Assembly (NCBI GenBank): GCA_019454165.1
Contig: CP075367.1
Span: 1,020,179 to 1,084,178, forward strand
DNA: 64,000 nt
Source: Anaerolineales bacterium
GTDB lineage: Bacteria; Chloroflexota; Anaerolineae; Anaerolineales; UBA11579
Direction of reading: 5' to 3'
In this document: piece by piece, positions 30,850-37,552 of the stretch
How the letters are laid out: each line of letters opens with the position of its first letter
How positions within the stretch are numbered: the first letter of the stretch is position 1
Notes under the pieces: model-generated
Seen by the model: only the letters and a program-made list of their open reading frames with translations
What the model was told of the DNA's origin: nothing
The model's database searches: none
Program-made: the position numbers and the translations under genes

Positions 30850-30933
30850 GGCTCGGTGGCGGAACTGGCAGACGCAGGGGACTTAAAATCCTCCGAGGGC
30901 AACCTCTTGTGGGTTCGATTCCCACCCGAGCTA
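30850..30933 (+). tRNA. tRNA-Leu (anticodon TAA)
   Basis: An 84-base type II tRNA. The acceptor GGCTCGG pairs with CCGAGCT (G-U at position 1) and the anticodon loop is CTTAAAA. The variable arm CGAGGGCAACCTCTTG is long, T arm GTGGG-TTCGATT-CCCAC, discriminator A. CCA is not encoded. The 3' part from 30881 is repeated exactly at the far end of element 2. Confidence 0.95.
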
Positions 30934-30935
30934 CT
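30881..30935. repeat. attL of element 2 (3' part of tRNA-Leu)
   Basis: A 55-base perfect direct repeat with 34597-34651. It covers the tRNA from the anticodon loop to just beyond the 3' end. Confidence 0.92.
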
Positions 30936-30994
30936 GAATTTACCCGTAAAAATGGCCCCCCAGACCTGCCTGGCGAGGTTCGCCAGGCAAATCG

Positions 30995-31013
30995 GGTGCA
31001 ACCGGGTGCAACC
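30995..31013. repeat. 19-base direct repeat, copy 1 (candidate arm site of element 2)
   Basis: GGTGCAACCGGGTGCAACC, itself a tandem of GGTGCAACC, lies 60 bases inside attL. It is repeated identically at 34477-34495, 102 bases inside attR. Confidence 0.55.
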
Positions 31014-31014
31014 G

Positions 31015-32142
31015 CTAGCGCCCTTTGACAACGGCTTCCAGTAAGTCTGCGACTTGGTTTTGGATATTGGGTAGCAAGTGGCCGTAGAAATCCAGGGTGA
31101 TGCTTGGCTTTGCGTGGCCTAAACGTTTGGAAGCTATCAACACATCCACGCCATTGTTTAGCATGAGTGACGCCGCCGTGTGCCGCAGGTCGTGGAAGCG
31201 CACCTTTGGCAGACCAGCTTTTTTGAGCAGCTTGTGCAAGCCTCGGTAGGCTTCAGCGGGTTCTGTCGCCAGGCCATTCTTGGCCGGAAAGACATAGCCA
31301 AAATCCCGCCAATCATCACCTGCCTTCAGTTGCCTTTCAGTGATTGCGGATGCATGTGCACGGAGCACCTGGCAGGTTTCTGTACCGATTTTGATCGCAC
31401 GCACAGATGACTGGGTCTTGGGTTGCCTGGGTTGCAGGCCTTGGTCTGGTACACGCTTCAAGCTGTACTTGACTTGCAGAGACCCTTTTGCCAAGTTCAC
31501 TTCAGACCACCGTAAGGCCAACAATTCACCCTGGCGCATGCCGGTCACGATAGCCAGATAGTAGAGTGCATAACTTCCGTCAGCTTCTTGCTTGGCTGCT
31601 TCTAGCAAACGCCTTACCTGGTTCTCGTTGAGGATTTGCATCTCTTTTGTTTTGGTCTTTGGCGGGCTGGCTGCGTTTGCCGGATTGTGGGTCATTACCC
31701 CCATCTTCTTTGCTGAATTCAGTGAAGCCCGAAGGATCGCATGGGTTTTCTGAACTGTGCGTTCGCCAATGCCTTTATCTAGCTGGCTGTTGTAAAGGCG
31801 CTGGATGAGAAGCGGCGTGAGCTCCCGAAGTTTTACCGAGCCAAGGGCTGGCGAGATGTAGTCTTTGACCAGTTGGTTATAGCTACGCCAGGATTCGAAG
31901 GTGAGACGGGTTTTTGCTGTTTTCAACCAGTCGGCCAGAAATTCGTCAAGCGTTACCCGTGCTGCTTTTAGCGTTAGCCCACGTTCTACCTGGCTCCCCA
32001 TTTCCACTAGCCAGGCTTGCGCTTCTGCCCGTGTTTTGGCAGTGAAGCCCAGCCTGCCACCATTCATAGAGATTTGAGCTCGCCAACTCCCGTTGGGTCT
32101 TTTGTGGATACTGCCTTCTTTGTTGCCGCGTTTTCTAGTCAT
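31015..32142 (-). CDS. int: Tyrosine-type site-specific integrase (element 2)
   Basis: A 375-residue integrase homologous to that of element 1 along its whole length (shared EGSIHKRPNGSWRAQIS-like N-terminus, RFHDLRHTAASLML, LGHAKPSITLDFYGHLLP). Catalytic residues are R203, K242, H317-x-x-R320, H343 and Y353, so it appears intact. The gene ends about 80 bases from tRNA-Leu. Here the tRNA is on the opposite strand to int and the 3' half is used, whereas element 1 uses a 5' half on the same strand. Confidence 0.95.
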   Translation of the reverse strand: MTRKRGNKEGSIHKRPNGSWRAQISMNGGRLGFTAKTRAEAQAWLVEMGSQVERGLTLKAARVTLDEFLADWLKTAKTRLTFESWRSYNQLVKDYISPALGSVKLRELTPLLIQRLYNSQLDKGIGERTVQKTHAILRASLNSAKKMGVMTHNPANAASPPKTKTKEMQILNENQVRRLLEAAKQEADGSYALYYLAIVTGMRQGELLALRWSEVNLAKGSLQVKYSLKRVPDQGLQPRQPKTQSSVRAIKIGTETCQVLRAHASAITERQLKAGDDWRDFGYVFPAKNGLATEPAEAYRGLHKLLKKAGLPKVRFHDLRHTAASLMLNNGVDVLIASKRLGHAKPSITLDFYGHLLPNIQNQVADLLEAVVKGR

Positions 32143-34728: not shown

Positions 34729-35580
34729 ATGCCTAAACAATTGCTTCGTTTACTCACCACCCTGATCGTTTTGCTGGCAGCTATGGTGTACCCGTATCTC
34801 CCGGGACGCTATGACGCCAACGCGGTCGCACTTTCCACAGTGGTTCAAGTTTTTAGCATTGCGGGCATGCTTTTAGTGCCGATCGGCGTCTTGTGGCTGG
34901 CATACGCGGCCCGCCTGCTCTCCAAGAACCGCAGCGAGGGTAGCCAGGCCGCCGCAAGGCGGCGGTTTGCTGTGGTTGCCCTGGTGGCCTGCGTACCGGT
35001 CGCTTTGCTCACGGCGTTGGCCGCCTTTGCCACCGGCGGCATGCTGCTCGGTCTTGTTGTGCTGGCTGGCTTTGTCCTGCTCCTGGCCCGCCAACGGCGG
35101 CGCCTCCAGCAACCGCAACCCGGCTTTGATGCCACACCGCTGGCCTTGCTGCTCCCGGGCATCTTGCTGCTGGCCCAGCTTGGGCTGGCAGGCCCGCTGA
35201 CCGAGTTTAGCCGCAACCGCGCCATCGCCAACAGCGCCGAGATGCTGCGCGACATCGAAGCCTACCGCGCCCAGAATGGCAGCTATCCGGGCAGCCTGGC
35301 GGCGGTGTGGCACGATTACGCGCCTGGCGTTGCGGGAATTGCCAAGTATCACTATGTTGCCGCCGGAGACGGGTTCAATCTATTCTTTGAGCAGCCCCTC
35401 TTCATCCTCGATAACTTTGGAGCGCGCGAATTTGTGGTCTACAACCCCTTGGGCCAGCACAGCATGATCAGCCATGATTCGTGGATCCTGCTCTTGAGCC
35501 CAAGCCGCGTGCTGGCTACCCAAGGCTGGTTCCAGGTCAATGATGCAGGCGGCGGTTGGCGCTATTTTTGGTTTGATTGA
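34729..35580 (+). CDS. Hypothetical membrane protein with pseudopilin-like C-terminal domain
   Basis: A 283-residue protein. Four hydrophobic helices (about residues 8-25, 38-60, 80-112, 135-155) precede an external domain of about 120 residues. The linker FSRNRAIANSAEMLRDIEAYRAQNGSYPGSLAAV resembles the helix-to-domain region of type II pseudopilins, where such a long helix is followed by a small beta sheet. No conserved catalytic residues were seen. It is expressed from a TTGACA promoter under a putative repressor. The function is unknown. Confidence 0.65.
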   Translation: MPKQLLRLLTTLIVLLAAMVYPYLPGRYDANAVALSTVVQVFSIAGMLLVPIGVLWLAYAARLLSKNRSEGSQAAARRRFAVVALVACVPVALLTALAAFATGGMLLGLVVLAGFVLLLARQRRRLQQPQPGFDATPLALLLPGILLLAQLGLAGPLTEFSRNRAIANSAEMLRDIEAYRAQNGSYPGSLAAVWHDYAPGVAGIAKYHYVAAGDGFNLFFEQPLFILDNFGAREFVVYNPLGQHSMISHDSWILLLSPSRVLATQGWFQVNDAGGGWRYFWFD

Positions 35581-35593
35581 GAAGCGCCCATGC

Positions 35594-35599
35594 TATAAT
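35594..35599 (+). promoter_or_regulatory. -10 box of the aspS leader transcript
   Basis: A perfect TATAAT lies 6 bases before ATG 35606. A TTTGAT -35 at 35572-35577 (16-base spacing) lies within the end of the preceding gene. The transcript should begin at or near the leader ATG. Confidence 0.65.
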
Positions 35600-35605
35600 C
35601 CCAGC

Positions 35606-35689
35606 ATGTTCCAACCCATCGTTGTGGACAACAATAATCTGGACAATAACCCCCAACGGGCGGGAGGCCCCTGCCTGGCGGTTCGTTAG
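35606..35689 (+). CDS. aspS leader peptide (27 residues, Asp/Asn-rich)
   Basis: A short frame between the promoter and the attenuator of aspS. Residues 6-15 read VVDNNNLDNN: two Asp and five Asn codons within eight positions. It ends at TAG 35687-35689, 18 bases before the terminator stem. Stalling at Asp/Asn codons would leave 35657-35666 free to pair with 35704-35713 and block the terminator. It resembles classical amino-acid leader peptides, but no such leader for aspS is known to me. Confidence 0.65.
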   Translation: MFQPIVVDNNNLDNNPQRAGGPCLAVR

Positions 35690-35740
35690 GTCCGCCTGGT
35701 TGGCTCTCGCCCGGTGCGCTCGCACCGGGCGTTTTTGTTT
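35657..35740 (+). promoter_or_regulatory. Transcription attenuator of aspS
   Basis: The terminator stem is CGCCCGGTGC (35708-35717) with GCACCGGGCG (35722-35731), loop GCTC, then TTTTTGTTT. A competing antiterminator pairs CGGGCGGGAG (35657-35666) with CTCTCGCCCG (35704-35713), 10 bp with one G-U, and consumes the left terminator arm. The upstream strand lies within the leader peptide frame. Confidence 0.65.
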
Positions 35741-35770
35741 GGATAGACTTGCGGAATAATTAGGAGCACT

Positions 35771-37552
35771 ATGTTCAAGACCCATACCTGTGGTGAACTG
35801 CGCGCCGAGCACAGCGGACAAGCCGTCACGCTGGCCGGCTGGGTGCACCGCCGCCGTGACCACGGCGGGCTTACCTTCATTGACCTGCGTGACCGCTTCG
35901 GCCTGGTCCAGATCGTCACCGACCCGGAGAAGGCGCCCGAGGCCCACGCCGCCTTTGAACCTGTGCGCAGCGAGTGGGTGCTGCAGGTCACCGGTGTGGT
36001 GCGCGCCCGCCCTGAGGGCATGCAGAACGCCGAGCTGGCCACCGGCCAGATCGAAGTGGCCGTGACCGAGCTCAAGGTGCTCAACCAGGCCAAGCCGGTG
36101 CCCTTCGCCATCAACAAAGACGAAGAGGTGGACGAGAACGCCCGCCTCAAGTACCGCTATCTCGACCTGCGCCGTGAGCGCATGCAGGGCAACATCATCC
36201 TGCGCCACAAGATCGTCAAGTTCATCCGTGATTACATGGACAAGGAAGGCTTCCTCGAGATCGAGACGCCGATCCTGTTCAAGACCACGCCAGAGGGGGC
36301 GCGCGACTACCTGGTGCCCTCGCGCGTCCACGCCGGCGAGTTCTACGCGCTGCCGCAGTCGCCGCAACAGCTCAAGCAGTTGCTCATGGTGGCCGGCATG
36401 GAACGTTACTTCCAGATCGCCCGCTGCTTCCGTGACGAAGACCTGCGCGGCGACCGCCAGCCCGAGTTCACCCAGCTCGACATCGAGATGTCGTTCGTGC
36501 AGCGTGAAGACGTGATGGATCTGATGGAGCGCATGTACACCGCCATGATCAAAGAATTGCTGCCGGGCAAGCGCCTGCTCTCTGAGCCCTGGCCGCGCCT
36601 CACCTACAAAGAGTCGATGGCGCGCTTCGGCAAAGACAACCCGGACATGCGCTATGGCATGGAGTTACAAGACCTGACCGAGTGGGCCGCGGGCAGCGGC
36701 TTCAAAGTCTTCGAGGATGCGGTGGCAAGCGGCGGCCATGTGCGCGGCATCAACGCCAAGGGCATGGGCGGCGCCAGCCGCAAAGAGATCGACGCGCTGA
36801 CCGACTACGTAAAGCAGTTCAAGGCCAAGGGCCTGGCCTGGCTGGCCGTCGCCAGCGAGGGCGAGGATCGCTCCTCGTTCATCAAGTTCCTCAGCCCCGA
36901 GGGTTTGGCCGCGCTCAAAGGCGCCATGGGCGCCGAGCCCGGCGATCTGCTGCTCTTCGTGGCTGACCAGCCGGCCGTGGTGTTCGACACCCTCGGCCGC
37001 CTGCGCGTGCACCTGGCCGAGCAGCTCAAGCTGGCCGACCCGGACCTGCTGGCTTTCTGCTGGGTGATCGATTTCCCGTTCGCCTTCTGGAACGAGGAGG
37101 AGCAGCGCTGGGACCCCAGCCAGCATCTGTTCACCTCGCCCATGCCGGAGGATATTGACCTGATCGAGAAAGACCCGGCCAACATGCGCGGCACCCAGTA
37201 CGACATGGTGCTCAACAACACCGAGGTGGCCGGCGGCTCGATTCGCATTCATGACCGCGCCCTGCAATCGCGCATCTTCAAGCTCATCGGCTTGAGCGAG
37301 GACGTGGCGCAGGAGCGCTTCGGCCATATGCTGGAAGCCTTCGAGTACGGCGCGCCGCCGCACGGCGGCATCGCCTCGGGCATTGACCGCCTGGCCATGA
37401 TCCTGGCCGACGAGGACAGCATCCGCGAGGTCATCGCCTTCCCCAAGAACCAGGCTGCCCGCGATGTGATGGCCGATGCGCCATCGCCCACCGAGGAGCG
37501 CCAGCTCAAAGAGCTGCACATCAAGGTCGACGCACCCAAGAAACCCGAATAA
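35771..37552 (+). CDS. aspS: Aspartyl-tRNA synthetase (probably non-discriminating)
   Basis: A 593-residue bacterial-type class II enzyme. An OB-fold anticodon domain (1-105) is followed by motif 1, the catalytic core with motif 2 ([26 protein letters not shown], seen as [12 protein letters not shown]), a GAD insertion domain (about 290-420) and motif 3 ([11 protein letters not shown]). His31 in RRRDHGG and Gly83 in RPEG are the residues found in non-discriminating bacterial AspRS, where Leu and Lys mark Asp-only enzymes. It would then charge both tRNA-Asp and tRNA-Asn, the latter corrected by GatCAB. A GGAG ribosome site lies 5 bases upstream. Expression is probably controlled by the leader/attenuator. 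Confidence 0.95.

Follow-up and report, generated by a model that had tools for sequence, protein, structure and literature searches.

An Asp/Asn-rich leader peptide and putative transcription attenuator upstream of aspS in Anaerolineales

What controls the aspartyl-tRNA synthetase gene aspS in a genome with T-boxes before seven other synthetase genes? The window, a 64,000-nucleotide stretch of an Anaerolineales (Chloroflexota) genome assembled as a single contig of 2.24 Mb, carries a short open reading frame (ORF) and two overlapping stems directly before aspS. Taken as a whole, the locus very probably controls aspS by ribosome-mediated transcription attenuation.

The leader ORF and its coding character

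The first-pass annotation had described an Asp/Asn-rich ORF of 27 codons, an antiterminator of ten pairs and a perfect 10-bp terminator directly before aspS, and all three are present (Table 1). The antiterminator pairs are consecutive, with one G-U (35663-35707), and the terminator runs into a T tract. Compared with dinucleotide shuffles, the leader region folds into a much more stable structure (z = -4.6). A Shine-Dalgarno-like AGGAG precedes aspS, and no such sequence precedes the leader ORF. Farther upstream in the window, a tRNA-Leu gene (30850-30934) adjoins a tyrosine-recombinase-like ORF on the minus strand (31015-32142), and this region (30850-32142) resembles the edge of an integrated element.

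Table 1. Features of the aspS leader, in window positions, and T-box leaders of the same genome, in contig positions
Feature	Position	Strand	Basis
Extended -10 promoter element, TGC-TATAAT	35591..35599	+	sequence
Leader ORF, 27 codons, MFQPIVVDNNNLDNNPQRAGGPCLAVR, probably leaderless (ATG at 35606, TAG at 35687-35689)	35606..35689	+	sequence; kept in relatives
Putative sensor run D-N-N-N-L-D-N-N (GAC AAC AAT AAT CTG GAC AAT AAC)	35627..35650	+	sequence; enrichment statistics
Antiterminator 5' arm CGGGCGGGAG, within leader ORF just past sensor run	35657..35666	+	shuffle test, co-variation
Antiterminator 3' arm CTCTCGCCCG, overlaps terminator 5' arm	35704..35713	+	sequence; shuffle test of arm pairing
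Intrinsic terminator hairpin CGCCCGGTGC-GCTC-GCACCGGGCG, 10 pairs, loop GCTC	35708..35731	+	
Terminator U tract TTTTTGTTT	35732..35740	+	sequence
Shine-Dalgarno-like AGGAG of aspS	35762..35766	+	sequence
aspS, bacterial-type aspartyl-tRNA synthetase, presumed target	35771..37552	+	NF001750 E=1.5e-252, TIGR00459 E=1.4e-223 (NCBIfam)
T-box leaders L259-L265	G000:C1 143314, 212129, 423889, 923983, 1389637, 1424753, 1999155		

Six nucleotides separate the extended -10 element of the window, which the first-pass annotation did not mention, from the leader ATG, and the transcript therefore probably begins at or beside the ATG. In 51 of 65 relatives, a TATAAT-like box matching at least five of six positions is found no more than 30 nt ahead of the leader start, mostly 6-12 nt before the ATG and often with the extended TGC. 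The position of the promoter in these sequences suggests that the leader ORF is probably leaderless in most relatives. The extent of the unit is marked by comparison with genome G008 (region L004), whose AspRS is 98% identical to that of the window genome: the two are unrelated upstream of the -10 box and nearly identical in promoter, leader and terminator, the near-identity running from the -10 box to aspS.

Enrichment in Asp and Asn codons was assessed in 152 distinct aspS upstream regions, drawn from relatives, named genomes and one to several members of each family of the class. An ORF with at least six Asp or Asn codons in ten occurs in 49 of them, compared with 0.03% of dinucleotide shuffles, none of the 152 antisense sequences and 2 of 621 flanking pieces (0.3%). 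Outside the Asp/Asn run, the leader peptides are very different from one another (for example MHASLLNNNNEDNNALFRAGLTLLGH, MFQIGLPWFFLNENNNDNNNTLHRAGGCTLGWR and MLKQIHFANNNNNDNDDPCIVGRSLAG), indicating that the run reflects more than sequence inheritance.

Compared across species, the leader ORF evolves as a coding sequence. Asn and Asp each use both of their codons frequently (AAT 189, AAC 131, GAT 84, GAC 71), interruptions of the tract preserve the reading frame, and changes between leaders of the same genus are mostly synonymous (CCC/CCT/CCA, ATC/ATT, CTG/TTG). For the FAN group of 16 leaders aligned on Phe-Ala-Asn, dN/dS over the sensor codons is about 0.12 by a simple pairwise count rather than a tree-based one. 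The conservation in relatives that had been proposed as a check is seen here, as Asp/Asn codons are kept while nucleotides drift.

The same features bear on whether the leader is instead an RNA element bound by AspRS, another protein or a small ligand, in other words an autoregulatory site or a new riboswitch in which the A-rich AAY/GAY tract is an unstructured linker or a binding site. Several synthetases bind their own mRNA for regulation, as ThrRS of E. coli does, and the sequence of the terminator arms is strongly conserved. Nevertheless, the codon-wise evolution of the tract just described, the ATG directly past the promoter box and the lack of any Rfam family above noise make such an element very unlikely.

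Alternative stems and the proposed switch

The antiterminator is supported by both pairing strength and co-variation. For 65 regions having both a leader and a terminator, the stretch between the Asp/Asn run and the terminator was shuffled as a control. The native leader arm paired better with the terminator 5' arm at p<0.05 in 50 of the 65, and the window's own arms gave p=0.015. Arms from the same species reach a register-optimised score of 17.43, versus a mean of 15.04 (sd 0.31, maximum 16.25) over 5000 permutations in which arms were swapped between species; the permutation ignores the relatedness of species, and the difference is strong but carries no formal probability. Double changes are found at several antiterminator pairs, including C-G to G-C, G-C to A-T and T-A to G-C. 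The compensatory changes anticipated in the first-pass annotation are seen as co-variation of the antiterminator arm with the terminator arm.

A simpler account would accept translation of the ORF but treat the hairpin as a constitutive terminator, or as marking the end of the preceding gene, with an incidental Asp/Asn run. Terminators are common, and a same-strand gene does end at 35580, with the terminator following 130 nt later. Yet the arms of leader and terminator co-vary, Asp/Asn runs this dense arise about 1000-fold less often in shuffles, and promoter, leader and terminator are kept in L004 downstream of unrelated sequence. We regard this account as highly improbable.

The reading of the locus as ribosome-mediated attenuation is supported by comparative tests that were able to refute it, and we infer the regulation itself, including ribosome stalling, the efficiency of termination and the direction of the response. 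In the proposed mechanism, transcription would start at or beside the leader ATG, as the -10 box suggests, and a ribosome would initiate on the probably leaderless ORF. When Asp-tRNA or Asn-tRNA is scarce, the ribosome would stall within the Asp/Asn run and leave the arm at 35657-35666 free to pair with 35704-35713. This antiterminator would occupy half of the terminator 5' arm, allowing RNA polymerase to continue into aspS. When both charged tRNAs are plentiful, the ribosome would reach the UAG at 35687, which lies inside the antiterminator loop, and prevent the antiterminator from forming, and transcription would stop near 35738. A single leader would in this way report both products of AspRS, Asp-tRNA and Asn-tRNA.

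Computational folding is consistent with this switch when the order of transcription is taken into account. The model placed the leading edge of the ribosome 12 nt past the A site and left the terminator 3' arm untranscribed. Under these conditions, a ribosome stalled on Asp/Asn codons leaves the antiterminator free and one at the stop codon masks it; the median modelled probability of arm B-leader pairing over 63 leaders is 0.81 with the ribosome on the best Asp/Asn codon and 0.10 with the ribosome at the stop. Clear switching at this stage of transcription was seen in 41 of the 63. Full-length equilibrium folding showed no switch in most leaders and often favored the terminator even with a stalled ribosome. 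Such folding is uninformative for switching because the complete terminator usually wins, and its failure to switch in most leaders requires a kinetic mechanism like that of other attenuators. In the model, antiterminator formation would thus have to precede synthesis of the terminator 3' arm, which is standard for attenuators.

Distribution, T-boxes and the route to Asn-tRNA

Within the order, a leader scored as at least four Asp or Asn codons in ten plus a terminator is present in 35 of the 42 regions sampled and in 9 of 13 families. Retention of the terminator with loss of the Asp/Asn run or the antiterminator, which the first-pass annotation had named as the outcome that would count against it, is accordingly rare; four regions (L014, L018, L037 and L042) keep the terminator with just two or three Asp/Asn codons. 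In the rest of the class, 4 of 41 regions clearly have leader and terminator by the same measure and many members are without this device altogether, and none of 40 other Chloroflexota has a convincing leader. A search of 41 relatives' genomes for TATAAT, ATG and four Asp/Asn codons gave 11 matches, 8 of them before aspS.

Other arrangements occur around aspS in the class. In L096, L101 and L128, all outside the order, short ORFs before aspS carry one V-V-D-N-N or D-N-N motif each and end in a conserved G-R, and these are perhaps a reduced form of the Asp/Asn leader. In L171-L174, from another family of the class, a conserved hairpin, TGGGGnGGTTGC...CCCCA followed by AATTTTTT, lies directly before aspS. 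The hairpin region has neither an Asp/Asn ORF nor an Rfam match and may be a further control element of aspS. Eleven Anaerolineae without an Asp/Asn leader have a 6S RNA gene just 3' of aspS: L055 (3336-3510), L026, L039, L046, L063, L064, L067, L068, L069, L070 and L073.

All seven T-boxes of the window genome lie upstream of synthetase genes, namely pheS, trpS, leuS, valS, ileS, thrS and serS. Their scores range from E = 7e-6 to 5e-22, most of them under the Rfam gathering cut-off. The genes behind them include pheS, trpS, leuS, thrS and serS, which pass their own NCBIfam models, ileS, named by the best match of a fragment, and valS, named from the protein start and a PF00133 match. With these seven as positive control, the T-box model (RF00230) gave no match at aspS in 35400-35900 at E up to 10, and it gave none in 34 Anaerolineae aspS regions without a clear leader. 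A degenerate, unrecognized T-box at aspS, to which the seven T-boxes before synthetase genes of the same genome lend some support, is scarcely credible given that even this permissive search was blank and that the leader, at about 135 nt, is shorter than the 219 positions of the T-box model and filled by an ORF. Leader peptides sought at ileS, leuS and valS were not found, T-boxes being present there instead. As judged from these sequences, control of aspS by a leader peptide appears to coexist with T-boxes acting on at least seven other synthetase genes.

The mixed composition of the run may reflect the tRNAs that the enzyme serves. No asnS match over the cut-off was found in the window genome or in sampled members of its family, and gatB is present in two copies. 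An asparagine synthetase B match is also present, which does not by itself yield Asn-tRNA. An indirect route to Asn-tRNA(Asn) via AspRS plus GatCAB is known (PMC4206432). With asnS missing and gatB present, AspRS should feed both tRNAs, probably supplying Asp-tRNA and Asp-tRNA(Asn), the latter to be converted by GatCAB to Asn-tRNA(Asn), and we infer that the enzyme is non-discriminating. This expected dual supply would explain why Asp and Asn codons are mixed in the run.

The AspRS motifs RRRDHG and RPEG are present, with His and Gly at two positions that we take, from work on the Pseudomonas enzyme, to be those of tRNA-Asn recognition; genomes with and without asnS are not told apart by the His/Gly motif. 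Nor does leader presence go along with asnS absence across the order, as several leader-bearing relatives have asnS. In two of the leader-bearing relatives (G030:C43 29175-32349 and G036:C34 61615-64815), asnS lies directly behind aspS and the leaders are Asn-rich, which suggests joint control of aspS and asnS. A joint Asp/Asn sensor fits a target both without asnS and with asnS behind aspS.

Known systems and significance

Phe-, Trp- and Leu-tRNA synthetase genes of two phyla are known to be attenuated by leader peptides (PMC1262725). The pheST attenuator of gamma-proteobacteria (PMC1262725) resembles the aspS leader in that its leader peptide is rich in the cognate residue, its antiterminator and terminator stems are alternatives and its target is a synthetase. 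The aspS leader differs in its two amino acids (Asp and Asn), its target gene, its Chloroflexota host and its seemingly leaderless ORF. Classical attenuators of trpS and leuS in some Streptomyces also place synthetase attenuation outside the proteobacteria (PMC1262725), but phylum, gene and sensor residues are different.

Two further systems share single elements with the aspS leader. According to PMC4052509, the tRNA-dependent transamidation operon of Clostridium acetobutylicum has a two-codon T-box that senses tRNA-Asn and tRNA-Glu (Saad et al. 2013), a similar case of a single leader RNA that reports two tRNAs, including tRNA-Asn. That T-box binds uncharged tRNA directly, whereas the aspS leader would sense via the translating ribosome. 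Mycobacterial polycysteine upstream ORFs (Canestrari et al. 2020) are likewise short ORFs with a run of one sensor residue, and leaderless as the aspS leader probably is; according to PMC13236596 they serve translation attenuation of cysteine genes, in contrast to the transcription termination proposed for aspS.

T-boxes are known in Chloroflexi (PMC3766115, PMC2494555). An RNA motif predicted upstream of aspS in Shewanella carries the label "tRNA synthetase leader", with no leader peptide described. Lopatovskaya et al. (2010) reportedly treat attenuation of aminoacyl-tRNA operons and could include related predictions. Within a literature search of incomplete coverage, no report was found of a leader peptide for aspS, of Asp/Asn sensing or of a Chloroflexota case. 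As far as searched, the attenuation logic is known and the gene, the sensor pair, the phylum and the probably leaderless ORF are new.

The 65 co-varying leaders are a ready data set on leader-peptide evolution, and the promoter position allows a direct test of leaderless initiation on a regulatory ORF. The mixed Asp/Asn sensor is linked to an AspRS with two probable tRNA substrates, and one genome offers a natural comparison of T-box control, at seven synthetase genes, with putative ribosome-mediated control at aspS. It is plausible, with the case evenly balanced, that a class of leaderless leaders responding to Asp-tRNA and Asn-tRNA arose within Anaerolineae, beside the T-boxes, to control a non-discriminating AspRS and, in some lineages, neighboring aspS and asnS genes. 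If true, this would suggest that the choice between T-box and leader peptide depends on how many tRNAs the enzyme serves.
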